Assembly (NCBI RefSeq): GCF_026914265.1
Contig: NC_069125.1
Span: forward strand, 26,325,595-26,389,594
Length of the DNA stretch: 64,000 bases
Source: Mya arenaria
Lineage: Eukaryota > Mollusca > Bivalvia > Myida > Myidae
Reading direction: 5' to 3'
Part shown: piece after piece, positions 7,709-62,271 of the stretch
Layout of the letters: every line of letters begins with the position of its first letter
Numbering within the stretch: position 1 is the stretch's first letter
The notes under the pieces: generated by a model
Seen by the model: only the letters and a program-made list of their open reading frames with translations
Databases searched by the model: none
Told to the model about the DNA's origin: nothing
Position numbers and translations under genes: made by a program

Positions 7709-7867
7709 CATGGTTTCAAATTATAGTAACAATACAGTCATTTTGGAGTTTCATTTTGAATATAGTTATGAAAATAACTGAAAGCAAACAAGATATTCAC
7801 ATAAATTGCCATTATTGATCATTCAAATGTACATGTATAAACAACACATAACTAGACGATGTACAAA

Positions 7868-10426: not shown

Positions 10427-10494
10427 CTTGCAAAATGTATTCCCCGGAAGTAGGAAATGGAGTAGCCTCCCTTAGAAATCAGGGGAAGTAACCA

Positions 10495-35853: not shown

Positions 35854-36390
35854 GCCATATATAGAGGAAGCTTTTGGAGGGGTGGCCTATTTTAAATTGT
35901 TATAAATTCTTAATTTATACAGCTATCTGGTTGAAATTTGGCCAGTTGACAGTGCTTAGGCATAGAATATTGGTGTTTGAGTATGAAATGGGAAAATCTT
36001 ATATTACATAATATAAATTAATAATATATAATTTTCTTACATATTGTTGACATTTAAAAAAAAAACTACTTTCACTTTCAATTTAATGTTTGGAAATAGT
36101 TCCAAATGATGGTAACTAATGAATGAAAGCCTCACTTTCAATTCCAAAGTATAAATGGAGGGATTTTTTTAACATAGGAAGCAGACCCAGGAGGAACTGT
36201 CTGTTGAAGAACCCCCCCCCCCCCCACCAAGCTGCCCACCAGAGGCCAAGCTGTACTTGGTGTTTGCCAACATGCTGTAATTTGTAAGTACTTCAAGATA
36301 ATATATTAGAAAATGGTATTCAAACTGAAGTACAAAGTGAGACAGTTTGGTCATAAAAGCCCATTGAGACTGTTTGTTCCATTCCTAAAT

Positions 36391-39300
36391 TATTATTATT
36401 ATTATTATATACCATATTTCTATAGCACTCTTTTCATACATAAAGTATGTTCAAAAGTGCTTTACAATGTAATATAAAACAATAGACAAACTAAAATGCT
36501 TATAACAATATTAACGCTAGTCAATTAAAACAAAGTGTTTATGCATAGTACATATGTACAAAATTAATATAATATAAAATGTTTGAAATAACTATAAAAT
36601 AATAGAATAATAATTTCAGAGTTAGTGAAAACCAATAAAATTTAAAGATAAAGTAACAACAAGCTGTTAAATCCCGGATAGATCCATGCACTCGGAAATA
36701 AAATAATAAAACACTTATCGTCCATAATACTGTTTAAAATAGTGGGTTTTCAGAGCCTTCTTAAAACTTTGCAAGGTGTTACAGTCTCTGATGTCAGATG
36801 GTAGGGCATTCCATAACTTAGCTGATGCTGACTGGAAACTTCTGTCACCATAACGCGCCGTCCGACATTTAGGCACAACTAACGTCAGTGACTTATTTTT
36901 CGACCTCAGATTTCTGGATGCTCTGTATATTTCTAACATGTCCACAATGTACGCAGGCGATTGGTCATGGAGCGCTTTAAATGTGTGTGTTAGAATTTTG
37001 TACTCTACTCTGCATTGCACAGGGAGCCAATGTAGTTCCTGTAGCACGGGGGGTATATGGTCGTACCTTGCTGTCCTCGTAACAATTCTAGCTGCCGTAT
37101 TTTGAACAGTTTGTAGTTTGTTTAATATCTGCTTTGGAACACCGTACAGGAGAGCATTGCAGTAGTCTATGCGAGATGTAACAAGAGAGTTTACCAGAGA
37201 TTTGGTTGCGTTCAGTGTTAGATAAGGTCTTATATGGCCAATGTGTCGCAATTGTGCGTAAGAATTTCTACAAACACTATTGACGTGTTGATCCAGCTTC
37301 ATGTTTGAGTCAAGATAAGCGCCCAGATTCCTAACACTTGGTGATTGTTTGATTACAGAGCCATCGACGGTGACGGAGACATTTGAAACTGTTTTTGAGT
37401 TGTGCTCAGATGAGAATATGATTAATTCTGTTTTGTCCGCATTTAGCTTTAACATGTTGTTGTTCATCCATTTCACTATGTCATTCAGACAGTGTTCAAT
37501 GCGATTGACAGATTCTTCAATTGAAATTGTGTTTAATGGTTTGAACGATAAGTATAATTGCGAATCATCCGCATAGAAATGGTTGTCCAAGTCATGGTTT
37601 CTACAAATAGCTCCAACAGGCTTTGTGTACATTGTATAGTTTTTGGGGCCAAGAACAGACCCTTGGGGTACGCTGTACTTCATCAGCACTGGGTCCGAGA
37701 GTTCACCATTAATGGCTACTGTTTGATAGCGATCACTGAGGTAGGACCTCATCCATGTAAGTGGTGTCCCTGTGATACCGAAGTGATGTTCTAAGCGAGT
37801 AAGAAGCGTCTCGTGGTCAATTGTATCGAAAGCAGCCGACAGATCTAACATTACTAGAATAGTTACATTATTTCTGTCCAGTGATTGAAGAATGTCATTT
37901 TGAACTTTCAACAGTGCGGTTTCGGTTGAGTGGAATTTCCGATAGGCTGACTGGTTGACTTCATGAAGTTCATTGTTTTTTAGATGATTTTCAATTCGGA
38001 CATCTACCACTTTCTCCAAGATTTTTAATATAAAAGGCAAATTAGACACTTGCCTGTAATTTTTAAGAACATTTGCGTCTAGACTTGGCTTTTTAGAAGT
38101 GGTCTTATTCGTGAGTGTTTGAATGATCGTGGCACATATCCAGATTGTAGGGATGCATTTATGACTTTGGTCATCACAGGTGTAAGCTCATCAAGACATT
38201 CTTTAAGTAACCATGTTGGGATAGGATCCAATTCACATGATTTACTGGCTGACTTACGGATTATCGATTTCACTTCATCCTCCGATGTTGGTGTAAACTT
38301 ATCATATTTAACTCCTATATAATCAGCTTCTGTATCACCAACACCAGATGAAGACTGCTTTTGTGAGGTAATATTGTCTCTGATATTTTCGATCTTCCCA
38401 ATAAAGAAGTCGCTGAAATTCTGAGCGAGCTGTTTTGGAGACGAATGCAATGGTAAAATTACCTCATTTGTGTTTCCAAGAAGAGTTTTAGTTATTCTAT
38501 GCAGACTTTTCTGGTCACTCCCATAAGATTCAATTTTGCTTGTGTAAAAGTCAACACGGGCTTGTTTCAGCATCCTATTTACCACAGCGCATTGTGATCT
38601 ATAAATGTCATGATCAACTGAAAGTTTACTCTCACGCCATTTTCGTTCTAATTTGCGTTTCTGATGTTTTGCATCATGAAGCTGCTCAGAATACCATGGA
38701 CATGAAGGTCTTAACGTGATAGTTTTGGTTGTCAATGGAGCGTGCTTGTCCAAAATTAACGTCAGTTCATTTGAGTATTCTTCAATGAAGTTATCAATAT
38801 TTGAAGATATTCCTCGAGCGTTAAAAAGATCTGTTTTCCTAATATCGTCTCTAAATGAATTAATGTCAATCGAACGCAACTTTCGGTAAGTCACAGCTTT
38901 ACGAATTGGGGGTGGCTTGGAAGCTTCCACATGAAATGTAACTGCGAAGTGGTCACGTGAGATCCTTCCGTTGGAATCTGACAGACCAGGATCTATGACT
39001 TCAACATTTGAAATGACATTGTTATTATCTCTGGTTATCACTACATCCAGTGTATGTCCAGCAACATGGGTTGGTTCTGCAACATGTTGATGCATGCCAA
39101 AAGCATCTAAATTGCTATTAAACTTTTTGGTGTCACTATTTGTAGGTTGGTCGAGATGAAAGTTGAGGTCTCCTACAATTACTGAAGAGTTGCCTTCTGT
39201 AGCATGTTTCGATAAGAAAAGGGGCCATTCTTGCTCTAAAAACGTGTTTGCGTTCAGGCCATTTTCTCTTGATGGGGGTGGTCTGTAAATAACAGCAAGC

Positions 39301-39677
39301 CGTATTGAATGTTTGCCTATAACCACATTGCAATCCATGAACTCAAACTGAGAAAAATCATGGTCTTTGCTTGATGCAATAATGTTGATGTGTATGGAAG
39401 CTTTGTGAATGATGGCTACCCCTCCGCCTCGCCTACCTCTACGAGGGACATGCTTCATTTTGTAACCCTCTGGTACTAGTTCACTGGTGCATGACTTATC
39501 TACAGAGCTACCGAGCCAAGTTTCGGTTATGGCACAAATGTCAAAGTCCTTTGTAAGGATAAAATCACATATTGATAATGTTTTATTTTTAACTGATCGA
39601 GTATTTACGGAGCAAATTCTTATGTTTTTCTTCCCTGCTGTTTGTGTGCAGTTGTCGGGCTGAATACGTATTATGTT
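36391..39677 (-). mobile_element. CR1/L2-like LINE, 5'-truncated
   Basis: A 3287-bp retrotransposon on the minus strand inside macrosatellite unit 10, flanked by a TAAAT duplication (36386-36390 and 39678-39682). The 3' end (low coordinates) has a TAA microsatellite tail preceded by GTAAAGCACTTTTGAAC and AGAGTGCTATAGAAATATGG, like the conserved 3' ends of L2-type LINEs. No ORF1 is present and the 5' end falls just before the endonuclease domain, so the copy is 5'-truncated, as is usual. The second ORF is nearly full length. Confidence 0.92.
36715..39677 (-). pseudogene. LINE ORF2: AP endonuclease and reverse transcriptase
   Basis: The endonuclease half (39677-38079) shows ICSVNTRSVKNK, ITETWLGS, GGGVAIIHK, VIYRPPP, VVGDLNFH-like IVGDLNFHLD and SRDHFAVTF, in the order expected for an apurinic-type endonuclease. 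The reverse transcriptase half (38049-36715) has LDLSAAFDTIDHETLL, VPQGSVLGP, the catalytic FYADD, and a C-terminal region with HWLPVQCRVEYKIL and LWNALPSDIRD as in CR1/L2 proteins. The two halves are one ORF split by a single-base frame offset in a short T run (38090-38094, plus strand). Together they give about 970 codons. The open ORF runs through the insertion point into flanking repeat DNA, so the apparent first Met at 39707 is not part of the element. Confidence 0.9.
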
Positions 39678-39732
39678 TAAATGAATTTCTTTCATGTTGT
39701 CAATCATTTCTGATGTGGCTTTGATAATAATA

Positions 39733-41220
39733 TTATTTTCTAATGAAACTGCTGACTTGTATCAGTCTTTGGTCTGTATTGTGCATCTATTCACACATTT
39801 TGTTTGCTCTTTTAAGCAAACATTACAATAATTGCAAATTCTATAAGCAATTAAACAAAACTTACTGCACATAGGATGCAGAATGATGTTTTATTTAGTG
39901 TGCATGTGCATATGATTTTCAGCTTATGGACAAGAAAACATATACTTTAACAATCACAGCAACACAATGAGATCCCAATTTTAAAGAAATAATGCCACCT
40001 TTCATTAATTCATTAATTCAGTCTATCAATCATTCATATATATTCATTAATTCATTCATTTATTCAGTTTATTCATTGAAAAACTTGACATTTCTCAAGG
40101 CAAAATAAATAAAAAGTGAGCAATTTTCATAAAGAATAGAGCCTTTTCCCTTAATGCATTAAAAAACACAACCTTAATACAGTATAAATGTTTTAAAAAC
40201 CCTAATTTATTGCTTATTTTAATAGCCAGCCTGGTTGCTGTAGCCACAGAGGAATTTTCAAGGACAAGAACCAGTGCTGGTAAAACTGTGGTCTCGTGTG
40301 GTTTTCCATACCGGCTCTCGGCAAGGATTTTCAAGAAAGGAATACCATCTCCAAGTAAGAAGAAATTCTAAGCATGTCTGGTTTGAATGCTTGCAAAATG
40401 CATCTGGGTACTCAATAAGATGAGATTTACCTTTGAGTTGTTAAAAACTGATTGCAAAATGTCCAAAAGACTATATATTCTATTAAATTTGTCCTGAAAA
40501 TCTTTGAATTCATGAACTTTTCTGCATATTTATCACATTTATGACTATATTAAAGGTTGTGTATGCCTCAAATGAGTGTTTACAGGCCTTTTTCAAACTT
40601 TAACAGTAGTGGCAGATAGTTTTATTTGTGTAAAACATTGCTTTTGTGTCTTGCTTGCAGATCATGATGTGCCAATAAGCTCCAGTTAGCTGCGGCCTTT
40701 TCCCCAGGCGGTAGTCCTGCAATCTGAATCCAGGAGATGCAGCTCTGAATCCAATATTTCAGAAGAATGAAGATGTTAGTCAACTCTGTAGTAGCTTGTT
40801 TGTGTGTAAATGATTCCAATGAGTGAGATTTATAGCAAATCAGGTGTAAATAAGCATCTTATAGACAATAGTGAAGTGCTGTACTCTGAATTTAATGCCA
40901 AATCTAGCCTTCAAAACAGATTCTTAAAGTATTTTTTTTTTAAATGGGCATAATAATGCTATCTCTGCATTTTCTACATCATGTAGCCACCTCATACATG
41001 AAAACACTAGCAGTTGTCATGAATCTTTATGTTTTGGTGTGTTTTTTGCCATTTCCTTTGTTGCGCCATTTGTCCCGGAAGCCAACAATTTGGCATATAG
41101 TGTTGTTTAGACTGTCTATTAACACATGATCACTAAATTTCTTGTGTTAAACTGGACAGTTCTGTTACCTTTGTATATAAGTGGACCAGAAAAGCAAAAT
41201 TTTGACAAGTTGAGGCATTT
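39733..41220. repeat. Macrosatellite unit 11, partial right-edge copy
   Basis: The first 1.49 kb of the unit, then an abrupt switch to unrelated sequence at about 41220. This is the most diverged copy: a 6-bp duplication near 39901, substitutions near 40021, 40067 and 40122, small insertions near 40297 and 40793, and others near 41030 and 41127. Confidence 0.93.
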
Positions 41221-41632
41221 CTACTGTAAAAAGTATGATGAAGCTAAAAGAGGACTGGAAGAAAGAACTTTGCAAATACTATACAGATATTGCATACCCA
41301 TGCAGCAATTACGTTGGGGTTATTAGCGGGTGAAATAGAAGAAATAACGAATTGTGCGAAAGAAGAACTGATGGATTCATTAAGCTTATATCTGTCAGAA
41401 ACAAACAGGCTATAAATATTTAAATTTTATAAAAAATAATAAAAAATAATTCCCTTTTAAAAAACACAACTTTCCAAAATTCGATGAGTCCAAAAAAAAA
41501 AAGTAACAAGAGTACAAGTACATAGAATAAAGCACAAAGTTGATATCGGCAAAAATATTCGATAAAGTACATCGAGACCATAGGCGACGACGACGCCATA
41601 ATTCGACAAACAACAACAACAACAACAACAAA
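41221..41632. other. Array flank with microsatellite
   Basis: Sequence changes abruptly at the end of the array. Bases 41221-41420 contain short open stretches in different frames (for example one ending EELMDSLSLYLSETNRL at about 41416) that look like decayed coding DNA of unknown origin. A (CAA)n run lies at about 41609-41632. No gene can be supported. Confidence 0.4.
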
Positions 41633-41697
41633 GGACGCTATAAGGTTACCATTTATTTTACTTTTGTTGATCAAGTTAATATAACAACGGCATTTAA
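41633..41697 (+). repeat. Dispersed repeat, block 1, copy A
   Basis: GACGCTATAAGGTTACC onward is nearly identical, in reverse complement, to about 62465-62531. A more diverged copy lies at 56170-56245. The copies seem to be fragments of one dispersed family. Confidence 0.7.
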
Positions 41698-42849
41698 AAG
41701 AATAACATTTAATAATAATAACATTTTTTTTTATCTTGAAACCTTTTCTGACATTATTATTTACTAATAGTTATTGGGCAGTTTATTTTGCATTTGTCTT
41801 GCTTAAGAATGCTTTATTAACGCTCGTTAAGGATTTAATTGACATAGGACTATATCTTATTGTTTGCTTCAGATAGAGGAAGCAACTTAATCTGATATGT
41901 TTTTAACCAATATGTGTTGGTGTCACTTAAAATTCTCTTATTGCTCATGTTGAAAAACACACTTATAACTTTTTGTACAAGTTCCATTTTTATAAATAAA
42001 TCCTTTGTGTATAGAGTGAGTTATTTGTCAACTGTCTGATGCCATATTTTCGTAACAAATGGTGCATTATTTTAATGTTTGTTTAAATGGTAAAAAAATA
42101 TGAACAACTCGGAAAGCAAGTACTTAGTTCTAGAAACATTTCATTGAAGTTATTAGTCTAAACTTTATTTCTTCATGTTTCAACATCAAACTTTGAACAT
42201 GAAGTCATAAGGACAACAGTCACATGACCCAACCAACATTAAGATCAAGATAATCACATCTTACAACCATACAAGGCATATTTCTGCTGGAATATTTGAC
42301 AGAATTTATGTGTTTTTTATGCATTTCAACAAAACAATATACCTGGAAGAAGACCTAAGTTCACAAATTATGTCTTAAATTAACCTAACAAAAGCAACCT
42401 TAATAGCTATAATTTTACTTTTGAGACAAATATTCTTTGTTTGCATCCGGAATCTTGTTAAACTTTTTGTTAAAAAATACAACAGATTTTCTAAGAACAA
42501 AAATGTGTCTTCATGTTGTTTTTTGCTTTATGTTGAGTTAAACGTTTGTGTCTTTATTACTTATGATATCTGACTTGCAGAAATTATATCTTTAAAAAAG
42601 TTTCCTTGTTTGTTATTCTAGAACCTCCTTGATAAACAAATGATCATGAAATGTCTCATTATTGGTGTAATGCAACCCTTGAGCCTTACCTTTAAAGGGA
42701 AGGTCATGGTCAAATAAAGAAATATATAAGCAGGTTTCACATTTCTTTTGACCTCGCATGCAGTGGCATGAGCGAGCTATTCTGAAAAGTTCTCCGACAT
42801 CTTATATTCTTTTCAAGAATCATTTCAATGTTTACCATATACACAAATT
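41698..42849. other. No recognised feature
   Basis: AT-rich DNA with no ORF that resembles a family, no inverted-end element and no RNA gene that I can recognise. Confidence 0.5.
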
Positions 42850-43495
42850 CAGTGGCAAGTCTACCGGGGGTCACGGAGGGCCCGTGCCACCCCTCCCCCC
42901 TCACCCCCAGCGCGCTGGCAAGTTATGGTTTTTGTCGGCACATCTTTATTGATTTAACTGTACAGATAAGTTTTTTCACAATTTAAAGTTTATAGCGCTT
43001 TGAGCAAGAAAACAATTGAATCTGATGTTCGTGTTCCAGTGTTTATGGTAATATGCCAATTTCAAAATATATTTAATACTGTTTAGTTTACGACACGAAT
43101 CTCTTGAAAATGACATCAGGGCCCGAACATTCGATAATGATAAATAGGCGCCACATTTCACACAGACAGCTGATTAAAAGTAAACAACTATGGCTGCAGT
43201 TATATGTGTAAGTTTACTGTTTTACTACAGTTTCAATCCCGGCGACCCCGGTTCGATTCTTCTCACTGGCATGATATATTTTCTTTTATGAAAAGTTTAA
43301 CTTATATCACTTCAAGCTATCTTTTTAATAAAATTGTTCTGCCAAACTCCATTGACAGCAAAAACAAATGTTCGTTCCATATTAAAATTATGCATTCCAA
43401 AAAAGTTCTATAATTATGTTTATTATAATTTGTGCCCCCCCCCCCATAATAATAAGTTGTGCCCCCCCATTTAGAAAGTCCTTGACCTGCCTCTG
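42850..43495. mobile_element. hAT5-like non-autonomous element, 646 bp
   Basis: Ends CAGTGGCAAGTC and GACCTGCCTCTG pair as imperfect inverted repeats, flanked by the 5-bp duplication AAATT (42845-42849 and 43496-43500). C-rich runs sit near both ends (around 42885 and 43436-43469). Five-base duplications with CAG...CTG ends fit the hAT5 group, but no transposase is encoded, so the group is inferred. Confidence 0.6.
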
Positions 43496-44743
43496 AAATT
43501 GAGCTAAGCACTGTATTTATGTCAAAGCAGATCATTTTAGGGAAGCCTAATATCGTTAAATATTCCAATCAGTCATTGTATGTCTCGTGTATTTGTGTTA
43601 AATGTGTTCAAAACAATTCTTTGAAATTGGAAAATGAATTAAAACTTTGAAACAAAATATGAAGTGATGCACTTGAACCAAAATAACACAAAATGGCTGA
43701 CATCTTGTTTCACTAAATTAAAAAGACTACCTCACCATTTTTTCTTAAATTTCCATGTAAATTTTCTTTGATGACTATTAAGGTACATTGACCAATTGCT
43801 AAGAGCCCAAAGTCTGATGTTTGGCTTGTCAATAATCAGGTCTTATATGTTGCTGTTTCAAATCATATGATTAAATTCTTGCTTAAAACGTATATGTATC
43901 TCTTCAGCGTCTATGGGAACTTTGTGTAAACATCACAGGAAGCTGCATTAAAAGACAATTTCCAAAACAAGGGTGATTTTTTTTTTACCTAAGTAGACTT
44001 GTATTATTCTCTACCTGTATGTTCAAAGGTACTGGAAGTAATGGCTTTATTATGGGATGTTGCATAGAGCTTTTCTATTCAACCATATAACCCCCGGCTG
44101 GAAGACACTTAAATTATGCCACAACCTTTTGGAAGCAAATTTACCCTTTTGGGGATATTGGCAAAATTAGGGGAAAGACGCCCACCCATATACTATTCAG
44201 ATAATTGCCTTTTCCTAGGGGTATGTTTTTTTGGATAGCCCTAATAATACTATGATAGAACTGATGTTAATCCTAATGATTTTTGTCTACTTCAAAACAT
44301 AAAGAAGAGCTCTTACTCCCATATAAGATTTACAACAATTTATACAAATATAATTTTAATATGCCCCCCTAAGAAGAGGTTGAAATCAGTGATTTTTATG
44401 AAGAAAACAGAGTTTATTTAAAAGAAATTTGCAGAAAACTAGGTTTTTCTTCCATCACTCGTTCGTTACCTAGTCTTACACAACTGAATGTTTAGACACC
44501 TACACAATTGCACTGAATCTTCAAGTTCACCCTAAAATGTCTCATCTGGAGGTCAATGAAGTGTTTGTTATAAGAATAACAGTGAGATCATGAAATTATC
44601 CGCATATTCTGGGATGTCTTCTTACCACACTATTGAACTTTAAATCACTGGCTTGACTGAGAAAAAATGACCCAACATATGTAAATTACATTTTCTGGAA
44701 CCTTGCTGTCAGGGTCAGATTCAATATTCTTGTTTATCATATT
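43496..44743. other. No recognised feature
   Basis: AT-rich DNA without a supportable ORF, RNA gene or element with visible ends. Confidence 0.5.
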
Positions 44744-45414
44744 AAAGCTGCACTCTCACAGATATACCATTTTTACAACTATTTCTTTCAATTGGAGATA
44801 GTAACGTTTTGTGTAAATAGTGCTGACAAAAAATAGGATCACAGATTTTCATATTTCCATTCAAAATTTTCAATGTCGTATTGATTAAACTTACTTATGG
44901 TTCAAGAAAACAGCATAAAACATCAATATCTGAACTTAAAGCTGCACTCTCACAGATTTACCATTTTTACAACTTTTTAAAAAAAAATCATGGAAAGAGC
45001 ACATTTTTGCATGAATATCTGCAAACCAATTATAAGAGATTGCTTACAAAAGATCATATCACAGATTTTCATATTTCCATTCAAAAAAATTATGTTTTAT
45101 GGCTTATACCGTTACAAAGGGTTTAAGAAAAATGGATTAAAAAACATTTCTTGAACTTCAATATAAAAAAACAACCCATTTTTTGTCAGCAGTCTTATAT
45201 AATTAGTTTCAATGGATTTTCGTAAAACTTGGCTTTTTTTAAGACAAAAAATAAAAAAAAAGTGTCAAAACATTAAATCTGTGAGAGTGCAGCTTTGAAT
45301 ATTAAATCTGTGATTCATTTCTTGGTCAGCAGTCTTGTATTACTGGTTTCCATGGATTTTTGCAAAAATTGGCTATAAGTTGTCAAAACGTTCATTCCGT
45401 AAGAGTGCAGGTTT
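44744..45414. mobile_element. TTAA-target MITE, outer member of a nested pair
   Basis: Begins TTAA then AGCTGCACTCTCACAG (44742 onward) and ends GTAAGAGTGCAGGT then TTAA near 45416. Interrupted by a related element at 44938-45296. The family, with ends AGCTGCACTCTCACAG, is also represented near 63767. TTAA flanks suggest a piggyBac or Kolobok transposase supplied elsewhere. Confidence 0.65.
44938..45296. mobile_element. MITE of the same family nested in the previous one
   Basis: Runs from AAAGCTGCACTCTCACAG to CTGTGAGAGTGCAGCTTT, a near-perfect inverted pair at 359 bp. The left flank has TTAA; the right flank has TTGA. Its interior resembles that of its host, so this is a family member inserted in another. 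Confidence 0.7.
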
Positions 45415-45689
45415 AAATACTGAAGAATAACATACACCCTCCACAACTCTTGCTCATACTTTACACGTGTCTGTCATTCCATTAGTTGCAACATTTATTC
45501 AGTCATTTATTCAACTTTCATACTGCCCAGATTAAATGAGCACCATGGAAAGGTGTTTTACCCATGTAATATATGGAGTCAAAATCAATTGGAAGTCAAG
45601 GTTTATAATCCCACAGATTTGAAAGGTTTGGGGAAGGGAATATTGTTTTGGCGTTTACTGTCATTCTGTCCATCTGGAATCATATTTTG

Positions 45690-45945
45690 GTAGGTATTGA
45701 TAAGAAAATGATCAAAATTGGTCAGAATGTTCCTCATGATCAAACCTTGTCACTTGTAAAAGTGGGTCACATGGGGTCAGAAAGATCACTAAGTTAAATC
45801 TTAGAAAAATCTTTGGAACACACTTAAGGCATTATACATGGCCAATTATTCATGAAACTTAATCAAAATGTTTTCCTCGATGAACTCTTTGACATATTTA
45901 ACTCTGGGCCACGTGATAGAAAACTGGGTCACACCTCAGCAATAG
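45690..45945. repeat. Degenerate GGTCA-rich tandem repeat, about two units
   Basis: Two related segments of roughly 140 bp share phrases such as GGTCAGAATGTTCCTC versus ATCAAAATGTTTTCCTC and GTGGGTCACATGG versus CTGGGCCACGTGA. It looks like a decayed copy of a GGTCA-rich repeat common in molluscs. The rest of 45415-46686 shows nothing recognisable. Confidence 0.45.
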
Positions 45946-46686
45946 CCATTGTTGGAGGAAAACAATCTATATTCTCAGCATATCAAAGTGCAGATAGGCA
46001 AGTTCTAGGCTGATTTTCAACCTACGCATCTGTTCAAAGGTCCTGGAACTCACCTGATAAACAATCTCTGCATCAGATTTTGTATGTTCAATGTGTCAGC
46101 CAATGTGCATGTATTCTAAGTCAGTAAGATGCCTCTAGGAAATAATTTAAGTTTATGATTAAGATAGAGCTATTTTGCTACTCTCACTTCACCAATTTTA
46201 ATTAAGATCTTTCTTCATGTCATCTAAGTTTTACTTTAAATTTGGCCACATGTAACATAACAATTTTTTTCCAACATATATTTAATCATCCTTCAGCATT
46301 TGCTCAAAAGTGGGCGGCCACCTTAACGCCTCTCTGGTAACACGGGAATGGATCAATTTAAGCAATGAAAATTGATTTTACCAAAATAATGTATATTTAA
46401 ACAAATACATTTGCATAAATTTTCACCATAAGGATGATGACCCAGCTTCCTTTGTGTAGGTGATTAAAAATGAAAACTGAATTTGAAACCTAAAAGTACA
46501 CAAGCTTTTTATCAATTGTCATTAATAGCAAGTCAACAGTTTCTTGGTAGGTATATATATATATATTTAAATATATTTCGAAGATACATGTATATGATTT
46601 CATACAAAATACTTCAACAATTACCAAGACACAGATATAAAATAAAGAACATTTTACAAGGTACAGTTTTTTCTAAAGAAAAAACA

Positions 46687-49600
46687 TTACAAGTTATTTA
46701 TGTAAGAAGACAGCTGTACATAGAGATCTTTGGCCTCCTGAAAGTGGGAAATTTGTACTGGATCTGGTAGATTGTTTATTTCTCTGACCTGCTCCACTAT
46801 CTCTAAAAATTCTCCATCTAAATTTAAAAAATCATTTTCATATTCCTGGTGCAGATATTGCATTTCTTGCATCGAGCAGGCGTTTTTGTAATCTTCCACA
46901 CCTGCAAAATAAAATTATCACTTGCAAAGTCAAACTGCGTTGCCAATTATGCAAAACAATGGTAAATTTAAACAAGAGCTGTCACAGACACAGCGCGCTC
47001 GACTATTCCACTGTTTTCGGTGTATGGATTGAAAGGTTTTGGTGATACATGCATGGATCACTGTTAGATTAGATTTCAGTGCAATACATGATGTGCTGAG
47101 ATATTTACATAAATTGAATTGGAAAAGTTTTCAGGTAATTTCTAAGTCATAAAAGGGGCATAATTTTGTTAAAATGCTTGATAGAGTTACCCCCTTCTGT
47201 GACGGGTTAGGGGCATGATGGTGAAAAAGCGTGCAAAGTTTCAAAGCCATATGGACTTTGAAAATATTTGAGGTGGTACGCAAACTTTAACATAAGAGGT
47301 TACGCTGACGCTCAGGTGACTAGGATAGCTCTCCTTATTCTTAAAATAGTTGAGCTAAAAACAACAAGCATTCTTTATCATTACCCCAGTATACACACAA
47401 ACGCTCAAAAAGGCTATCTTGATTTTAAAATAGTTCATAATAATAAGGCTATTTTTTTTCTCATTAAAATATCTTAACTCAGATACAAAAGCGACTTCTA
47501 TTATGTACTCTGGCCTTAAATATTTGTTTCCGAATTTCTCTACCAATCCTATATCTTGACCCCAAACCAAGGCTTAAGCAGATTAGAGCAAAACCTGACG
47601 AGGATTAAGTCGAGATCTTTCTTATACTTACCAAGGGAAAACTATTTGCTCAATAAAATTAAATTTCTATTTACCTATCAAAGCATCCAAGTGTTTTATG
47701 GTAAAATCTTTAACTTTTTTTTAAACATACAAACATATAAAAAGTTTACCATATAATTCTACTTGTGTATGCAGAATGTCCGGAATGCCAGGAAGTGTAT
47801 CCCCCACTCTTTGATTGCGAATAGAATGGGTGTTCCAGAGATGCTTAATTTCATCCAGCTGCCTTCCAATAAATGGCAGGAGTGCATATTGCAGGCATAA
47901 TCTGAAAAGTATGAACTGAATCAATATCTTAAGATTTGACTTTAACTATGATTATTAAGAGGTGCTGTGACTGAAAAACAAGGACATTTTTTATGTTTTT
48001 TTTCATCACATCTTGTACAGCGCTCGAGTGAAAACAGCATTATCAAATCTTTCAGTGATTATCATGTTTAACCATAGATAATTCACTGGTATGTTGTTAT
48101 GTTTTACCTACCTTTGTATAGGATCTGCCCTTTCCAATCTATTGTCCCTCTCCAACAGCTGAAATAGTAAATAGAAATATTATTTTATTTCAGGATAACT
48201 GGTAGATTTTGATTTTGGAATTTAGGTTTTAGTACTACTTTTTAAAGTTTCAGCATTCACATATCTTTAAAAAAATATTTTTTTTAACTTGAGTGTTTGC
48301 CTACATGTGCATTATAGGCAAGGAATATTAATCCTTGTAAATTATTATGATACCAACCTTGATTTCATTCATCCAGTAGTCTGCCCGTGCATTTCTCAAG
48401 TAACCCCACCATCTCTCAATGCGCTGCAACATATAATTCAAAAGTTAAAATAAGATCAAACTATGCTTAAAAAAGATTCTACCAAGTATCAGAGAAATTA
48501 GTAAAATTTTCCAAAATGATCATGCAAAAGTTAAACAAACAGTCTAAAATCCAAATGGGCACAATTGCTAAAATTCATGTAGAGTTAACAGATCTGCAAT
48601 CATCACAGAGTTTAATGATGATGATAACTTGTAGGTTGGTTTGATACAGTCTTAAATTGAGGATGGATGACTGATTGACTGGATGGTCGGACAGACTGGA
48701 GGAAAACCAAAAGTCCTCTCCAGTCCAGTACAGGGCTTTTAAATTGTTGATACTGTTTTAAATCAAAATTCAATACCTGATTAGATGTGGATCGTCCATA
48801 TAAAAAAGCTCGTTCATTGTCCCTAAGAGCTCTTTGAGCTGCTGCCACTGCTCCATTTTCAGTGCCTCTGTCACCTCGGACTCTTAGAGGGAACCCTTCA
48901 AATTAAACATTAGATTGACATATTTAATCCACTCAGAACATCAGGACAATAATTGTATTGATTCACACAATAACACAGACATTTTTCTCCTGTTATTATA
49001 TACAAAATGTATCAAACCATCAACAAGATATTATACAAATATGTGTACTTACCACCTTCTTGGTTGACTGCTTCTATGAAGTATGATGCAATAACTTCTG
49101 GTCTTTTGTTTGTAATTCCTGCCTTTAACCACATCACCTTCCTGCTGAAACTAATTGATTTCATGATAGGTGTTATTTGATATACACAACAATATTATCA
49201 AAACTCATCACACTGCAGAAATTTCAAATGCAAATTGCAAGTAAATGCATGAAGTATGTTCAATAGCTTAAATCTTAAATAGCAGTATTTATATAAATAG
49301 TATCGTAGAATTGAGATTTGTTTTGTTTTTTTACAACTACAAACTACAAATATTAATTCTCTTTTTTAATGAACTGATTCAAGTCATTTACGACCTCATG
49401 TTCATTTTTTTTGTAAAGTTTTTGTAATAGCTGTGTTGTTTTAAAAAAAGAGTTTTAATTCTGGACATAACAAGAGCTGTCACGCTCGACTATTCTGCCG
49501 CTTTCAGTGTAAGGATTGAAAAGTTTTGGTGAAACATGCATGGATCACTGTTTGATTAGATTTCAATGCAATACATGATGTACGGAGATAATAACATAAA

Positions 49601-52600
49601 ATTTAATGTGGTTACATGCAAAATTTTAACCAGAATTTTTAAGTGCAATAATAAAGGGCCATTATTTGCAAAAGACAGACAGTTATCTTACTTGATTATT
49701 CAATTAGGTTGTGTGGTTTAATACCATTGTATAAAGTCTCAATGCAATACCTCAAGTAGTTGCATTGATTATTCAATTAAGTTGTGTGGTTTAATACCAT
49801 TGTATAAAGTCTCAATGCAATACCTCAAGTAGTTGCAGAGTTATTAACATATGTGTGCTTGCACGCAAAACCTTAACCAAGGGGTGATTAACCAAGGGGT
49901 GACACTGAAGCCGACGCTGATGCTTGGGTGAGTAGTATAGCTCTCCTTATTCTTCGAATAGTCGAGCTAAAAATGAAAAATAACAATTACCCATCTATGC
50001 ATCCATGTATATAGATCCCATAGGGAGCAAGCTTGTCATATCCATCTGAAACAGAATTAAAAAACATACACAATTATTTACTTCAAATGGCATGTTTTAA
50101 AAAAAATAGAACCAACAAACTCTCTCAATTGGCCATATATATATTGATATGAAATGTGTTATTGCCATTATTTCTTAAAATAAGAAATAACACATGACAC
50201 AACAGACATGAACAGTTACTGGATTGTATGAAAACAGATGATTTCTTGGCCATTCCCTTACTATTTTATGTTCCGCCGGAGAACAAATGAACGGAAAGAC
50301 AAACTGACGTCAGAAAAACTGAATTCGTCTCAATGATTTGCTAGAAATTTACAACCTTTATAAGGCAAAACAATACTAATTATGTGCATTTATTTTGTGT
50401 TTAATGCTGTAAAAGTACTTTTGCTTACTGGAACCACCTTTCTTAATATATTTACATACATAACAGATGGTTTGACAAATTTAGTTTTTTCTATTTAAAA
50501 AAACAAGAACTAAAATACTTGAACATACCCAAATGCCATACATAGTTTGGGCCCTGCAACAGAAATATGTTTCATCTCAATATTTCATGGACTAAGAACA
50601 ATTTTGACACATTCAAAATAAATACAAGTCTTTCTGATCCTTTATTGGAATATCTAAATGAAACCTTATCATAATCATAAGCATTCATCACATCAAACAG
50701 GGTCGCCCATCAAGCATGTCTTCAAAAATATGGCATGACCTTAAGTGTAATAAGTTTCCTTAAAGATGTTGGCGTGTTGATGGGCTCGGTGACTTATTGA
50801 CTAAAAAGTTTGATGACAAATGATTATTGGTGAAACTATATAAAAAGTCTTACAAAATTAGTTTCAAATATATAATATAATTTTGTGCATAAATTTAATG
50901 TTATCAATTACTGATCATAATATTTTACCTCAAGCATTAAGTGCTCTGACAGGTAAGCTTTAAATGGGTAAAAAAATGTTTCAGTAATTGGAATGTTCTC
51001 ATTGAAACTGCTTATGTTCAAAATTCCTTAAATCTTTTGGAATTTGCATTTTATTAGCTTACCCTCGAAATGTATTGGCGGCGTCTCAGTCTATGGCGTT
51101 TTCGTCTTTCCACTCCCTCTGGGTCAATTATTCGAACTAATTCTCTGCTTAGTTCCCTGAAAAGTATATCAAGAATACCTGCAAATCGCCCAGCATAGAA
51201 AAGTGAATGTTAAACTAAACAGACATATATCAAAATCAATCAAACAATAGTGTTCTACCCAGGGTGTAGTGCAGTGCCTTAATAGCTTAGAATGTGACCT
51301 TCACCAGAATAGTTTGTATAGATAATATAGTTTAATACATGGTCTGTAATGTCCTGAAATATGGTCTGTAATGTCACCAATTGCTGTTATGTCTGGTAGC
51401 TAATGCCCATGGTCGGTAATGTCTGTGACCTGTTTAAACTGTTTGTGTAGCTCTTGTATCAAACATGTATGCTATTATAATGCTGATTTTGTTGAAAGGT
51501 TACCACTCTAAGAACTTATAATATAATATATATAAATATAGCCAGGGCTTTTCTGCCCATTTTTGGAAAAAGACACTAGACATTTCTGAAAATTTGCATC
51601 AAATTGTGAAATTTAACAGTTAAAAATAAAAAGTGTTCTAGTCTCCTACGAATGAAGAAATTATTTAAAACAATTTCCCCTTAAAAAAGACCCAAACAAG
51701 CTGAAAGATCAATCCTTGTAGTGTAGTCATCACAATTGCAATAATTCATGGCGGATAATATTTAATACTGATCTCTGATTGTGATGAAAATCAATGATTT
51801 CTGAATTCAAGTATCCCCAAACTTTACATCACATAATGTTTTTAGGAGGTTGATTGAACCAGTACATGTAACAATACTTTCGCCATTTTTTATTTATTTT
51901 TTTAATTTTGGTTTGGATTTTTTTTCTTAAAATTGAGACAAATATCACTTATTTTGCTTTGGGAATGTGTCTGATAGTCAGACCTGTAGGTACTATAGAA
52001 AAAAAACAGTGAGAGTGTTTAGTAGGTGTGAGAACAATTATATTACCTTGTTATTCTCATATTGTGCTTTACTGACAACGTCCTTCGTAGCTGCTCTGAC
52101 CCAGCAACACCATTACTAATTTCACTCTGAAAAATATAATTGTATTATTAATATTAAAAAAAAGAAAAGCGGATAAGGAACAAATGCTGCAATACATAAT
52201 TCTGTTTCTGTTATATATGCTTATATATGCTTCTCACATGACTTCTATTTATTATGTTCCTCAAACATTAATCCTTACATCTAAGTTGCATCCACCTTTA
52301 ATTTGATATGTTAACTAAATCCCTTTAAAATGCCAGATTATTCTTATAAGTTGGGTTTTTAAACATAGTCAGTGTTTGACAATTTGATCCAATAAGCAAG
52401 TTAACTATGTTTTGTGTTACCGTGGCTTGATTAATAATGTTGACCACATTATCATCAAGTTGTCCTCTTCTCCGCAACCCGAGAGACGGTATCAGCTTCC
52501 TTTGCAGATAACTGAAACTACAAACACGTTACATAAAATACAATTAAATGCTATTAACCATTTGACATAAATTATCTTAAAGTGTAACATAAATATCTGA

Positions 52601-53643
52601 TGCAAAGTATTATGTACATGCAAATAGTGAAAATTGATATAAATGGTTATCAAAATATAAGTGTTTAACAATTTCATCTCAATACAAGTTATGCACCAGT
52701 CATTCAATTGTAATCACACACACCCCCCCCAAGGTCCGGGAATAGCCGGGATTTTGACTTTCGGTCCAGCCAACCCCGAGTAAAATCTCCGCCCTCCGGG
52801 GTCGGACTGATGGTCAAATCCCCGCCAAATTCCCCCGCGCCCCGGGGGCCTAGGTAAGGCAAATTCCCCGCTATATTTTGCCCGAAGTTAAAACCACCGC
52901 ATTCACCCGGCACTGCGGGGCCACCTGAAAGGTAAATACACGGCCCATGTCCCCGGCTATCCCCCGGCATACCCCCGGACCTTGGGGGGGGGGGGGTGGG
53001 GGCAGTGGTTACAATTGACTGGTGCATTAAGCAGATAAAACATTCTTTTCAAATTTCAAGGTTAAACAATTTCAGACATATTAAATAATTGACTCAAATC
53101 TCTTTAAGTTGATGTGCTGCCTGGATAGACAGACCACATAATAATTTTGGAATTATATTCACTGCCTGTGCCTTGAAAATTTAGATAAAAAGTCAACTTT
53201 GGGAAAAATACAAAATCAGGCCAAAATAGCTATGATAATGGCAATTTTACATTTTTTAAAATTATTTTTACAAACATTATAAGGTGAAAGACTTAGTCTT
53301 GTCAAGATTTTGTCTCTTTTTCAAGAATTTCATTGCCTTTTTATTCATAAATGTAATCTGCGTTTGTCAAATTGGCAAAAAAGCTATAAAATCTTGGGAA
53401 AAATTGAGTTTTTCGCAATGGAAAACAGCCTTTAGAAGGCAGTAAATTGCACCAAAAAATCACTGAATTTGATGAAATTACTGATTACATTTTATCAGTA
53501 TACCTTCGCTAACTCAGCAATTAATTTCTAGAATACATGATTCTTACCTTATGGTACACTCATGTCTGGTTTCTAGAAGATGGTGTATCACAACCTATAG
53601 TTGTAACCCAAGTGATGGTATTGTCGGATATGCTCCTTTATAT
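46687..53643 (-). CDS. Multi-exon integrase-core (rva_4-like) gene
   Basis: A spliced minus-strand gene of about 380 codons. Exons by GT/AG sites and matching phase: 53643-53548, 52511-52421, 52126-52047, 51156-51063, 50553-50529, 50045-49991, 49150-49053, 48895-48777, 48423-48358, 48158-48112, 47901-47750 and 46901-46687. Order of motifs: an HTH-like start (LGLRRRG), a basic stretch (RHRLRRRQY), NYVWHLDGYDKL with the first Asp, HGCIDGFSRKVMWLKAG, VRGDRGTEN with the second Asp, then RIERWWGYLR with the Glu 33 residues later, a WNTH segment, and an acidic C-terminus. This is the RNase-H-fold integrase core found in many mollusc and fish proteins (I believe Pfam rva_4). It could be a host gene taken from a transposon or a mobile-element relic. 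At least one exon does not read cleanly, so whether it is whole is open. The first exon may be incomplete. Confidence 0.75.
46972..47363. mobile_element. GAGCTGTCAC-family repeat, copy A
   Basis: Begins AACAAGAGCTGTCACAGAC and ends near TAGCTCTCCTTATTC...GTTGAGCTAAAAA. Shares its start, its middle (ACATGCATGGATCACTGTT) and its end with copy B at 49470-49975. Lies in the last intron of the integrase-core gene. Confidence 0.6.
49470..49975. mobile_element. GAGCTGTCAC-family repeat, copy B, with internal duplication
   Basis: The same family as copy A. GCTCGACTATTC near the start pairs with GAATAGTCGAGC near the end, which suggests a MITE. A 74-bp segment (TTGATTATTCAATTAGG onward) is present twice in tandem at about 49692-49839. 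It lies in an intron of the integrase-core gene. Confidence 0.65.
52692..53026. mobile_element. GC-rich fold-back MITE with TTA duplication, copy A
   Basis: A 335-bp insert with inverted ends TGCACCAGTC and GACTGGTGCA, extending inward through AATTGTAA(T/C)CAC and a C run to CCAAGGTCCGGG. TTA flanks both sides (52689-52691 and 53027-53029), which is typical of PIF/Harbinger. The interior is far richer in G and C (many CCCCG and CCGGG) than the AT-rich surroundings. It sits in the first intron of the integrase-core gene. A 107-codon minus-strand ORF here is a by-product of low stop frequency. Confidence 0.75.
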
Positions 53644-54533
53644 CTGTAAATTATCAGAAGACTACAGTGACAGTAAATAAATACTAAGTATACCGTGCAT
53701 ACCAGGAGTGATCCAGAAATGTAATTTATTCATAGTTTGGTAGAAGGAATTAAAAAATAAGTGTGCAACACATTTTGAATTTGTCTTTTGACCCGCTTCA
53801 GCAACAGATCTATGCAAGGTTGGAGCTCGTGTAATAATGATGTACGCGGCAAATTAAACAATGTAGTTTTACATACCTCGCAAATGAGTTACGCCATCAT
53901 TTTCTTGAATTAGGTGCATTTGCACAACTTTATACATTTGGCTACATTAAGTTAGCAGACTCATGCATAACTCTGTGCAAATTTTACGTAGAGATTTCTA
54001 TATTTCTCTAATGACACAAATAGATCTGATTATGACAGGAAAGCCGCGAATTTGTATTGCATGTAAAAGTTTATTCCCTGTGCTCACGGTTTACTGTAAA
54101 TTAATCCAGTTTTTAATGAAAATTACTTCAAGCTCTGAATAGTCTAAGTAACTACACTTGACTTTGTGTATTACACATGGCTTAAGCGTAATTTTGAGTA
54201 TAAATTATTGCTTGGTTCAAATTCGTCGGAGGATGTTGAACACAGCTTCCTTGATTGGACATTGCCATGATGCATCATTTAATCGATTACAATTTTTTAT
54301 TTGCGAATAGTTTTATTAAATAATATTATATATAGCTCACTCTTGGTATACTGTATACCGAGTATTATATATTACCTACAAAACATTACCAAGAATTATA
54401 ATTATGTTACTTATGTATTATATATTTTATGCTTAAATGTAATCAGCTGTTAATTCAGTGTCCTTTGTTGTTATTATGAAGTTTGGTTTGGTCCATTCTT
54501 ACCCACCAGTGAATACGTTAGATTAATCATTAT
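53644..54533. other. No recognised feature
   Basis: Upstream side of the integrase-core gene. I see no clear further exon, promoter motif or element ends. Confidence 0.45.
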
Positions 54534-54913
54534 CAGGGGCGTAGCCAGCGTTACGCACTTACGTAACATCAATTTGAGAAATGAAAAAAAAATATATCGC
54601 AAAAATGGCATCAAAATCGAGGGCATAGCTAAATATTGATATCAAAATATTATAAAGGGAAGAACAGGCTATAGTAAACATTGATTCTCTGTACTAGATA
54701 GCTTACTGTGGCTAAACCAATCACTTTGTTACTACGAAGTCAGCGGCCTCGAACCTATAAATCACTTCAAATACACATCAGTGCTCAACATGTTAGTTCC
54801 ATTTTCATTGTTGTCCCCTGGGACCCCCCCCGAGCACCTTCGGCTACAGGTGTAGTCGCCCTTCCAACCCCCCATCCGTGCGTAACATTCAGTAAAGGCT
54901 GACTACGCCCCTG
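54534..54913. mobile_element. hAT5-like MITE, 380 bp
   Basis: Ends CAGGGGCGTAGCCAG and CTGACTACGCCCCTG are inverted repeats (one mismatch in 15), flanked by ATTAT on both sides (54529-54533 and 54914-54918). The GTTACGC...GCGTAAC inner bases also pair in part. No transposase. Confidence 0.75.
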
Positions 54914-55413
54914 ATTATCATGCCTCTGATGAATGAGAATGATTATGGTCTCGAGTATATACATGTTAAATCTTTGATGGGAAGTTTGGATTCTGTCTTG
55001 GTTAAAAAATGATAAGGGTTTTGGGTGAAAGCTTCAAAATGAATACCAACAGGCGTGAGCGCTGTCAAGACCGTCTTCAATAACGGTCGTTTCACAACAA
55101 CCTAAATTGTTAATTGATCTAATTATTATTGCCTAAATTAGTAATCGTCTTATCAGATCTCCAGTATCGTTAATTTTAAAATCACAAACCAAAGACAAAC
55201 GAGTATTACATATATTTTTATAAAGATTAAAAGATATATGACGTTTAAAAATCACTTTCAATTCTATATTACAATGCAAAACAGCTTTAACAATGAAATT
55301 ATGCACATACCTTCTGTCATGCGCATTTTGTCACACTCTTAGTCCCCACGGCTATGAACTTTAAAAAAGACAATCAATCTCGCTAAATGCCGCGATACTT
55401 TGGCATAATCATT

Positions 55414-55780
55414 CCCGGGGAAATCTAATAATTATAATCTCCGGGTTTTTGACTTTTCATTCCCGGGGATAATAATTATGATCTCCGGAAATTTTGGTTG
55501 CACTTATTGATGATTATTATTATGATCTCCGGGTTTCTGACTCTTTTTCCGGGGATAATTAAAATTATGATCTCCGGAATTCTTGGTTGCAATTCCCGGA
55601 GATGATTATTATTATGATCTCCGGAATTCTGACTCTTTTTCCGGGGATAATTATAATTATGATCTCCGGGATTCTTGTGTGCAAATCCCGGAGATAATTG
55701 TAATTAAGATCTCCGGAGAATTAATTCCCGGGGATAATATTTTTTCTATTGAAATATATAGGCAAAATTATGATCTCCGG
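55414..55780. repeat. Array of about eight palindromes, period near 46 bp
   Basis: Units at 55414-55445, 55462-55488, a half unit ending at 55533, 55549-55577, 55595-55624, 55641-55670, 55687-55716 and 55727-55780. Each has a left arm CCGGGGAT or CCCGGAGAT, an AT-rich loop of about 13-14 bases, and a right arm ATCTCCGG. The last has a longer loop. Spacers alternate between TTTCTGACTCTTTTT and TTCTTGGTTGCAATT types, so the larger period is about 92 bp. An 80-codon ORF crosses it but is probably incidental. Function unknown. Confidence 0.85.
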
Positions 55781-55803
55781 AAAGGTGAACTCCGGCCTTC
55801 CAT

Positions 55804-56015
55804 ACTATTTATATGTAGAATATAATGGTACACTCGAGTTTCGGTGATCACTTGTCTGGAAATAAATATTTTGACTTGAGTGAAGTTTACGTAATTCGGA
55901 CGTTGTGTATTTTCGGATGATTGTCAAGTGGAAATGAATGTCTTATATGACTTCACCTTCTGTTATTATGACTGATGGTTAAAATGGGAAATTCAAATGA
56001 ATAGTGGAACAAGTA
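55804..56015 (+). repeat. Dispersed repeat, block 2, copy A (left arm of a large inverted repeat)
   Basis: Begins directly after the palindrome array. Nearly identical in reverse complement to 62272-62464, sharing for example GTACACTCGAGTTTCGGTGA and ATTCGGACGTTGTGTATTTT. The two arms are about 6.2 kb apart. Confidence 0.85.
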
Positions 56016-59723: not shown

Positions 59724-59941
59724 AATGTTCCGAGCGATTTAAAACTGTGCCCTGAAGCCTTGCAGGTGCCCTTCATGTATATATCGTTATGTTTTGACAG
59801 AATGAAATGAAGAAAAGCCGTCAAACTCATAATTATAAGTTGGATATTTGTTTTTTTGTGTACGGAACTAATATAAAATAATATTATCTGGTAATATTTC
59901 TTGTTTTTATGATATTTTATAGACGCTATATGCTTTAACCC

Positions 59942-62151
59942 TAGTCATTCTAAAATGCCGTCCAGGCTTTTTTTTAATGATGGTTAGCCTGGACGTCATT
60001 CATAATAAAATTCGTAAACATGTTCAAAATGCCGATCAGAATTTGGTCGCAAATTTATTGAAATTATTCCAATTTAGTCTATTAAAACAAAAAAAGAACA
60101 CTTTACCTGTTAAAACTAATCCTTTTTACATCAATTGCACTATATATTATAAAATAATCACGTTCCGAATTGTTAAAACAACATACATTTTCAAACACCA
60201 TCAAAATTCACCAAACACCATTGTTTTCGTTAACGAATGTAGCCGAGAATATCCAAATGCATTTTCTTTTCTCTGCTTAAGGTTACACATGACTATTAGT
60301 TACTTTAGTACAGCTTAGTACGAGCTGTAGTGTCATTGGCAGTAGTTTTGTTAAGGCAACATATTGTAAACCTGTAAATTATTCAAAATAAATTAAGAAT
60401 GAAGTGTTTACAAACATTTATTACTTTTGTTAGCATATTGGAACAAGGTCATTTAGTTTTTTGCAAAATGAATCAAATAGCAATATCATTAAGTTTGTGG
60501 AATGTTATCATGCAAAGTATGGGAAGAATTTTCATTTGCATGCATGGCATTTTTTTCAGTTCGTATCATTATTTTCTATTCTTGTAATTTACCCCTCATT
60601 TGCGCTCACTTGGATGTCTTTGAACTTTTGTATGCTTAATATTCCTTTGTTTGGTTTCTTTAAAGCATCCAGATTCTGACACACAACAAAAAAACTTTTT
60701 TAAGTACTACTTGTCACAAACTTGTGGTAAGAGCAACCTCAGGTACCAACTGTGATTGTACGAGCTCTCTCCTCCCTACCTTTTTCCTACCAGTAGGCGA
60801 GTAAGTTTTCTGGTGTTCTCCAGTGAACGACCATTTGTATGTATGTTGACAAAAACCTGCCATGACGGTTTGAAATTCTGCAATTATTTGGAGGTTTTTG
60901 ATTGCCATCTTTTGACATAAAACATTTCTACATTTCTTTCCCACACGCACCTAGCCTCCCGTCTAAAAACGACCATACATTATAAATACTATATGTGTGC
61001 TTTTACTTTGTATGACAGAAATTAGAATACTGGGTAAAATTACCGGTTTGCCTTTATAAGCTTTGTTAAATTTTATAGCGTCTCTTTGAACCGCTGGCGC
61101 GTTCACGTCACAAACTGGGCATATGACCTTCTATAAGATGACATTTTAAATGTAAAGTCGGCGAAGATTGCACAAGTGTCCCATAACAACCCGAGGCATA
61201 TTCTATAAGAGCATGAAGGCCAATTCTCACACAGAGTCCCGGCTTTGTCATATTTTAACCCCTTAAACACATAAGCGTTACTTCTGTTTACCAATATAGT
61301 TCTTTAAAAAAACACACAACAATTCTAACTCTAGTTGTTTTCCTATAAGCTTTAAGCTTGACGATAAAACGCACTCTAGTCGGAAAAAAGCAAACAACAA
61401 TGTTCTGTAAATATGTTTTTCTATCAATTCCTTTAAAAATAGTAATTTCCTGAAGATTCCCTTTAGTTGAGTTTTGTATAGGTTTTTTGATGTGAGGAAT
61501 AAGGTATTTGTTAATATAAATATCATGAAACATCTGTTCTAGCAAAACTATATATATAGTATATACACATAATAAATTGATAAGTCAGCAAAATCTCTGA
61601 TTATTGTAAACTTGGATTCACTTAGTGTAACAATGCCGTTGATATACATGTTTTTTTTATATTTAGTCTTATTTTAAATACATGTGTATAATAGTATGCA
61701 TTGTCCACATTGCCCATAGAATAGTTTGTAAATAAATCTTGAATCCTGTATGTGACGATTAATGTTTTTCAAATTCATTAAGTACAAAAGTGTGGTAACT
61801 GATAATGATAGTGTTAGGGGAAGGTAATCCATACTAAAAATACTACTTCAGATTGAAACCTTAAAGTATAGTTGTGTGTAACCTTTTTTTCTTTTGGGCA
61901 GTAAGAAAGCTCCTGTCAACTAAAATCAGGTATTTAAATTACTTTTTTGAAGAAATAGCTTGTGAATTTGCAAAATGGATATGGTTATTGATAAGAATTA
62001 AGGTATTTATTGGCAGTCTTAAGCAATAGAATACAAATGAAGACCATTTCATTTCATAGACAGTTTTTACATGTTTACGAATTTTGTTATGAATGACGTT
62101 CCAGGCTAACCATCATTAAAAAAAAGCCTGGACGGCATTTTAGAATGACTA
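59942..62151. mobile_element. MULE-like non-autonomous element, 2210 bp
   Basis: The ends are inverted repeats of about 82 bp (59942-60023 and 62069-62151) that differ by about one indel and one substitution, beginning TAGTCATTCTAAAATGCCG. They are flanked by the 10-bp duplication GCTTTAACCC (59932-59941 and 62152-62161). Long inverted ends with a 9-11 bp duplication point to Mutator-like elements. Each end holds its own hairpin: GTCCAGGCT (59960-59968) faces AGCCTGGAC (59986-59994). The interior is AT-rich; its ORFs (longest 113 codons at 59977-60318) resemble no transposase, so it must be mobilised in trans. Confidence 0.82.
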
Positions 62152-62271
62152 GCTTTAACCCGTAATCCTGATCGGAACAACTACCCACTTTTGATACTAA
62201 ACAATTTGTACGTGAAGGAATTGCCATATCAAAAATCTAAAAAAAATCCGTCAACGTACAATTATTTGGAC

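Follow-up and report, generated by a model that had tools for sequence, protein, structure and literature searches.

A hairpin array in Mya arenaria is the end of a truncated IS3EU-like DNA transposon and a candidate row of transposase-binding sites

A stretch of 64,000 bp in the Mya arenaria genome (C4:26325595-26389594, hereafter the window) carries a tandem array of short palindromes. Are these palindromes hairpins that act in RNA or as DNA cruciforms, binding sites for a protein, a minisatellite without function, or part of a mobile element? The array and its right border comprise the following features.

55411..55804, plus strand: A-type terminal array, from the first unit to the terminus (sequence, TRF and repeat finder)
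55437..55780, plus strand: eight outward-facing ATCTCCGG sites, exact in 8 of 8
55463..55735, minus strand: partner arms facing inward, six exact copies of CCGGAGAT or CCGGGGAT (site positions)
55784..55804, plus strand: terminus GGTGAACTCCGGCCTTCCATA (20 exact genome copies)
55805..55810, no strand: right flank CTATTT, the expected target duplication, its left partner having been lost with the left end (flank reading)

An earlier note on this DNA had described eight palindromes recurring every 46 bp. There are indeed eight exact ATCTCCGG arms (starting at 55437, 55481, 55525, 55570, 55617, 55662, 55709, and 55773) in steps of 44-47 bp, but the final step is 64 bp and only four units match CCGGRGAT-N13-ATCTCCGG exactly, with the perfect arm CCGGAGAT in two of these four. 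Among the remaining units, one has a 10-base loop beside an exact arm, in another the arm carries one mismatch, a third lacks a left arm, and in the last one the left arm lies 37 bases away from its ATCTCCGG. Both spacing and loop length (10-14 bases in array units) are non-rigid. The two types of arm and spacer proposed in the same note are borne out, as CCGGAGAT or CCGGGGAT stands upstream of ATCTCCGG, two spacer types alternate across the array, and the higher-order period of 92 (TRF score 356, 55431-55717) outscores that of 45 (score 230, 55411-55717); direct reading of the sequence and the repeat finder concur on the array. With up to two mismatches, the N13 pattern has eight matches, counted over both strands, versus 0.00 in 100 shuffles, and ATGATCTCCGG, with at most one mismatch, has ten versus a shuffle mean of 0.19. 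The inward partner arms begin 342, 256, 209, 164, 117, and 77 bases from the terminus. The array unit continues past 55780 as far as position 55804, where the element ends, and the terminus itself contains one more site variant (AACTCCGG), at 55788. The other full-length A ends (n=7) lose their match at query base 405-411, that is, at window position 55804-55810.

The earlier note advised a genome-wide search for the arm-N13-arm pattern. In the 1.216 Gb searched (18 contigs), CCSGRGAT-N13-ATCTCCGG has 54 forward and 59 reverse matches; the reversed control has none in either direction. Of the matches listed, many cluster in arrays that are paired in inverted orientation. Two array types can be distinguished, A (the window type) and B, with one at each end of paired copies. 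Between the two inverted arrays lies a body with a spliced transposase gene of the DDE type, and the target site is duplicated over 6 bp upon insertion. The suspicion that the array is part of an unrecognised element is supported, and these paired inverted arrays, termini, duplications, and transposase gene show the element to be a mobile one. Paired copies begin with TATGG and end with CCATA, and the terminus GGTGAACTCCGGCCTTCCATA is found at both ends of every one of the six larger pairs (12 ends) and at the window end. Genome-wide, the terminus has 20 exact matches and 47 matches with at most three mismatches (7 for the reversed control). Of these 47, we compared 13 over 451 bp (both ends of each of the six larger pairs plus the window end) and read 13 more, namely both ends of the copies at C9:1.78M, 3.17M, 9.49M, and on C17, and single ends at C9:13.3M, C6:58.8M, C10:24.7M, C4:57.83M, and C4:78.13M; the other 21 were left out.

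The ten paired copies read span 164 bp to 46.8 kb, and in six of them the 6-bp target duplication is exact. The lengths of the six larger pairs are 3,233 bp (C8), 9,178 bp (C3), 21,506 bp (C11), 24,571 bp (C10a), 37,396 bp (C14), and 46,760 bp (C10b), and five of them are flanked by exact duplications (AGTTTC, AATAAA, GTTTGG, GTTTCT, and AAATAC); the flanks of the C11 pair show no exact 6-bp duplication. The 359-bp C17 copy is flanked on both sides by ATATAC. The three short copies on C9, of 164, 164, and 171 bp, lie in one common flanking context, and no exact duplication was found around them; in one of these (L046), the element is inverted relative to another (L044, the third being L045), suggesting recombination between element ends. 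The seven A ends are mutually 98.7-100% identical (gaps excluded), so the family has probably moved recently; together with the exact duplications, this identity points to very young copies and suggests recent activity.

What the window holds is the A half of one such element, in which the B end is missing.

41695..55804, minus strand: truncated IS3EU-like copy, reduced to its A half and lacking both the B end and the BTB gene (alignment to other copies)

Pieces of this copy are 94.8-99.3% identical, mostly at least 96.5%, to the copies on C3, C8, C10 (two), C11, and C14, and the coverage of 41695-55804 by such pieces has gaps. Its last 451 bp are the same as those of the C10a copy (451/451). 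No second terminus is present within the window, and the nearest other terminus match on C4 is more than 30 Mb away. The array is thus no free-standing hairpin locus; it belongs to a large DNA transposon, of which the window holds a truncated copy, and forms the right end of that copy. To the left of the copy is a tandem array of units of about 2,907 bp (window 1-4030, 10512-34968, and 39678-41221), which are about 98.3-99.9% identical among the matches listed. An insertion in this array (4018-10471) has THAP, DDE_Tnp_4 (with HTH_Tnp_4), YqaJ, and SAP frames and presumably is an ISL2EU/Harbinger-type element. Another unit is interrupted at 36715-39761 by LINE-like frames (Exo_endo_phos and RVT_1), and a 443-bp sequence occurs three times, 99% alike, at 34520-35854 within the 2.9-kb array. 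Finally, a repeat at 59941-62156 shows 94.7% identity to a stretch within the 46.8-kb C10b copy, where it is probably an insertion.

The transposase gene of the window copy lies on the minus strand and reads away from the A end. Eight exons could be placed.

51063..51178, minus strand: exon e1 (AG/GT borders; one substitution versus C11)
50529..50553, minus strand: exon e2, encoding GPNYVWHL (AG/GT borders)
49991..50045, minus strand: exon e3, with the first catalytic D in DGYDK, by eye (AG/GT borders)
49053..49150, minus strand: exon e4 (AG/GT borders)
48777..48895, minus strand: exon e5, with the second D in RGDRGTEN, by eye (two substitutions versus C11)
48358..48423, minus strand: exon e6, with the catalytic E in RIERWW, by eye (AG/GT borders)
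47750..47901, minus strand: likely exon e7 (likeness to the C-terminal part of T429, by eye)
46687..46901, minus strand: likely last exon e8, ending in TAA (AG border and stop)

Exons e1-e6 join in frame into a 159-aa core containing WHLDGYDK, RGDRGTEN, and RIERWW, the D, D, and E residues being assigned by eye against T429. This spliced core matches the Pfam integrase core PF24764 (rva_4) with an E-value of 1.9e-27, whereas a single exon alone scores 19.8 bits, under the cut-off of 26 bits; the match of the core to rve (E 1.1e-4) is under the rve cut-off. The same exons are found in the C10a, C10b, C11, and C14 copies and in the window, with 0-3 substitutions per 846 bases versus C11. Divergence between copies did not differ significantly between exons (0-3/846) and introns (4-38/3,518-3,575) in any of four comparisons (lowest p 0.07). 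Neither a DNA-binding domain of the transposase nor its N-terminal exons were located. PF24764 has at least 150 matches in the genome (among the best 150 of 366 candidates) and none in 14 control genomes; the genome probably contains several IS3EU-like families.

To which group does the element belong? Helentrons and HINEs are not known to have target duplications or TIRs. Our element has both, which led us to reject a Helentron/HINE with a minisatellite core. Polinton/Maverick elements were also set aside. A 6-bp duplication is common to these and to IS3EU, and no Polinton polymerase or capsid was found in the four frames searched against Pfam (L032, two from L034, and L027, chosen among those of 110 aa or longer in the copy pieces), a search that spliced genes could escape. 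According to the parts of the literature cited here, IS3EU elements always have TA..TA termini and usually generate 6-bp duplications (PMC10045372), and fungal IS3EU/GingerRoot members combine TAYGG..CCRTA termini, 6-bp duplications, and passenger genes (PMC12730594). The Mya termini TATGG..CCATA conform to TAYGG..CCRTA at the 12 ends of the larger pairs and at the window end (PMC12730594), while the 6-bp duplication (exact in six of the ten paired copies read) and the DDD/E transposase, whose core matches PF24764 with catalytic residues recognised by eye, agree with both descriptions (PMC10045372, PMC12730594). By its termini, duplication length, and predicted integrase core, the element therefore appears to match the published IS3EU/GingerRoot description. 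What it adds to these descriptions, as far as the cited parts go (PMC10045372, PMC12730594), are palindromic subterminal arrays, a length of up to 46.8 kb, and a BTB-BACK-PHR gene.

The arrays are confined to the ends. A search of the C11 copy (21,506 bp, of which 99 bases are unread) for four versions of the motif gives 25 exact sites, every one of which starts within the first 294 bp or the last 370 bp, and the interior of about 20.8 kb has no exact site in the bases read. A-end sites occur within the last ~370 bp and B-end sites within ~440 bp, the upstream B copies being degenerate. Each end carries several ATCTCCGG copies aimed at the terminus, many of them paired, at a distance of about 21 bp, with an inverted copy. 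The outward arm is the better kept of the two in the window, where the partner arm within 8-14 bases upstream is exact in 5/8 units, differs by one mismatch in 1/8, and is absent in 2/8. In each of the seven A ends, eight of nine outward sites are exact, and the remaining one is the terminal AACTCCGG. Exact outward sites are fewer at the B ends: 6/11 in the C14, C3, and C11 copies, 5/11 in C10a and C10b, and 6/8 in C8. The inexact ones are one mismatch off and, in C14, mostly upstream. Among older or broken ends, outward arms are exact in 1/6 cases at C4:57.8M, 2/7 at C10:24.7M, 5/7 at C9:13.3M, and 6/6 at C6:58.8M; at the C4 relic end, the outward arm is no better kept than the partner arm.

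If the hairpin itself were the functional object, changes in one arm should be matched in the other. Among 31 distinct 29-base units, six were dropped (four with the arm AAATATAT because the last unit is stretched, one with CTGACTCT, and one with CCGGTACT). The remaining 25 palindromes show a single two-sided change, in one pair, a figure reached by 283 of 500 shuffles, and their stem covariation is 0.081 versus 0.077, reached in 119 of 500 shuffles. These results bear on the two hairpin readings put forward in the earlier note. A structured RNA or small-RNA source, in which the array would be transcribed and serial hairpins would act in processing, silencing, or termination, could draw on the folding of both strands, which is far stronger than in 100 shuffles (z -7.6 and -7.2). 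However, any palindrome array folds this well, compensatory changes are not in excess, partner arms vary or are missing, and an Rfam search of the window returned nothing at gathering score, so that we regard this reading as very improbable. We find it equally implausible that the array works through cruciform extrusion, with the DNA hairpin serving, for instance, as a signal for cleavage or recombination: two of the eight units do have perfect 8-bp arms around AT-rich loops, with near-perfect ones in others, and the inverted short C9 copy inside one flanking context does point to recombination between its ends, but one-sided arm changes are tolerated, covariation is not in excess, and terminal inverted repeats alone could suffice for inversion. 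An RNA or cruciform function of the array is not supported, nor is the notion of a selected stem.

A stronger competitor is a passive minisatellite, in which a unit that includes the terminal motif would have multiplied by replication slippage near the terminus, and the resulting array would spread with the element and do nothing. The array units share a recent duplication history, and their likeness is thus partly due to descent; this history and the two spacer types are what such amplification would produce, and the degeneracy of upstream B-end sites and of old ends also fits. Moreover, a 45-bp unit keeping ATTATGATCTCCGGG forms satellite-like arrays of 36.3 (L042, C6:10.9M) and 28.3 copies (L043, C6:13.1M) on C6, with no terminus seen nearby. 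Units related to the transposon end thus occur as satellites at two C6 places, which indicates that a related unit can also expand by itself. In these satellites, the outward motif is exact in 30/39 and 22/31 units and the partner arm has at least two mismatches in 39/39 and 30/31, figures that we set aside as support for the outward arm because each array probably derives from one founder unit. A further family (L054, C4:78127663) has nearly the same last 38 bp (two mismatches), but in the one copy read a different short-unit minisatellite replaces the array, which may therefore be dispensable; this family has five termini within 0.4 Mb (C4:78.1-78.5M), possibly local duplications. On the other hand, a passive array does not readily account for arrays at both ends with orientation toward each terminus kept, for the C11 interior free of exact sites, for outward arms exact in all eight window units, or for the retention of array sequence in deletion derivatives on C8 and C17, both with exact duplications. 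The C8 derivative has kept 2.9 kb of the A side but only 330 bp of the B side, the latter being almost entirely array and terminus. The earlier note had equated an array inside a transposon, or one lacking an excess of compensatory changes, with an ordinary minisatellite. Much of this was found, yet the array is terminal, fixed in orientation, and restricted to the ends, unlike a random interior minisatellite. All things considered, we judge the passive minisatellite unlikely, though clearly less so than either hairpin reading.

Exact arms aimed at the terminus, variable partners, and no compensatory excess are instead best read as a row of directional binding sites. We thus consider it probable, from sequence comparison, that the array is a subterminal row of directional, often paired, putative transposase-binding sites in an IS3EU/GingerRoot-type element. 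The palindromes would then be inverted pairs of putative protein sites rather than selected hairpins. Several observations count against this reading: outward sites are often inexact at B ends and at older or broken ends, a family with nearly the same last 38 bp bears a different minisatellite, C11 and the three short C9 copies have no exact duplication, spacing and loop length vary, the search for a DNA-binding domain in the transposase came up empty, and the likeness of the units is partly due to descent. The transposase, through a DNA-binding domain, would bind the outward site as its main site, and a second protomer would bind the inward arm. The dimeric protein evoked in the earlier note thus survives in conditional form, as the site geometry would suit a dimeric or multimeric protein. 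A row of sites would load many protomers, could distinguish a genuine end from places where so short a motif occurs by chance, and might help join two ends possibly 20-47 kb apart; autoregulation of the transposase gene reading away from the A end is also conceivable.

Comparable ends are known elsewhere. Hermes, a hAT element, generates an 8-bp duplication. In the cited part of the Hermes study, a quasi-palindromic pair of short sites is bound cooperatively by two domains, as measured, and the multimer supplies more domains for binding, but the sites are few and the domains are of BED type (PMC10368747). In Galileo/Foldback-type elements, tandem repeats within long TIRs hold several transposase-binding sites, with binding measured, and these repeats have been suggested to confer specificity and to compensate for the length of the element; Galileo differs by its P-superfamily THAP transposase, and the cited sections make no mention of 46-bp palindromic units (PMC3688188). 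CACTA/EnSpm elements, as far as the cited account goes, bear at either end a region of several hundred bp in which direct and inverted repeats are closely set, but differ by CACTA termini, a 3-bp duplication, and a different transposase (PMC8978399); a CACTA/EnSpm identity is set aside on account of the TATGG termini and the 6-bp duplication. We place the Mya element in none of these three. The earlier claim that no family like this had been described was accordingly too strong, since subterminal arrays are reported for CACTA, hAT, and Galileo in the parts of the sources cited above. In the literature, we found nothing closer than the IS3EU/GingerRoot, Galileo, Hermes, and CACTA comparisons, and no IS3EU paper mentioning "subterminal" was found in open-licence PMC literature (Repbase being outside this scope). 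Subterminal arrays as such are therefore well known, and what appears to be new is such an array in the IS3EU group.

A second gene is found in the C11, C14, and C10b copies and at one more place close to the beginning of C16. It is an open reading frame without introns, 434 codons long (416 counted from the first ATG in the searched piece; L032:5695-6996), with BTB, BACK, and PHR domains, and the four frames have a mutual identity given as 100%; an open-frame survey of the fetched pieces detected none in the C10a, C3, and C8 copies. In the PDB it matches BTB proteins, those of the BTB-Kelch type among them, with a best E-value of 1.7e-8. Outside these four places, the closest match among the best 100 of 111 candidates is a decayed relic (C4:57.84M; 35-55% identical, with stops), about 11 kb from an old array end, and further matches are at most 32% identical. 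Between gene and relic, Ka/Ks is 0.60 over 380 codons, with noisy low-identity stretches counted and stops skipped. The gene is possibly a long-term passenger. More tentatively, and with rather more doubt than confidence, we envisage an IS3-like, integrase-type animal transposon that moves 20-47 kb, including a host-like BTB-BACK-PHR adaptor gene, by means of a multimeric transpososome assembled on paired quasi-palindromic arrays, in which outward sites would be primary and inward sites cooperative.

An odd hairpin array becomes a testable transposon end. If the sites are what they appear to be, the idea of multi-site transposon ends would extend to the IS3EU group, and the Mya element would provide a system for asking how ends 20-47 kb apart are recognised.
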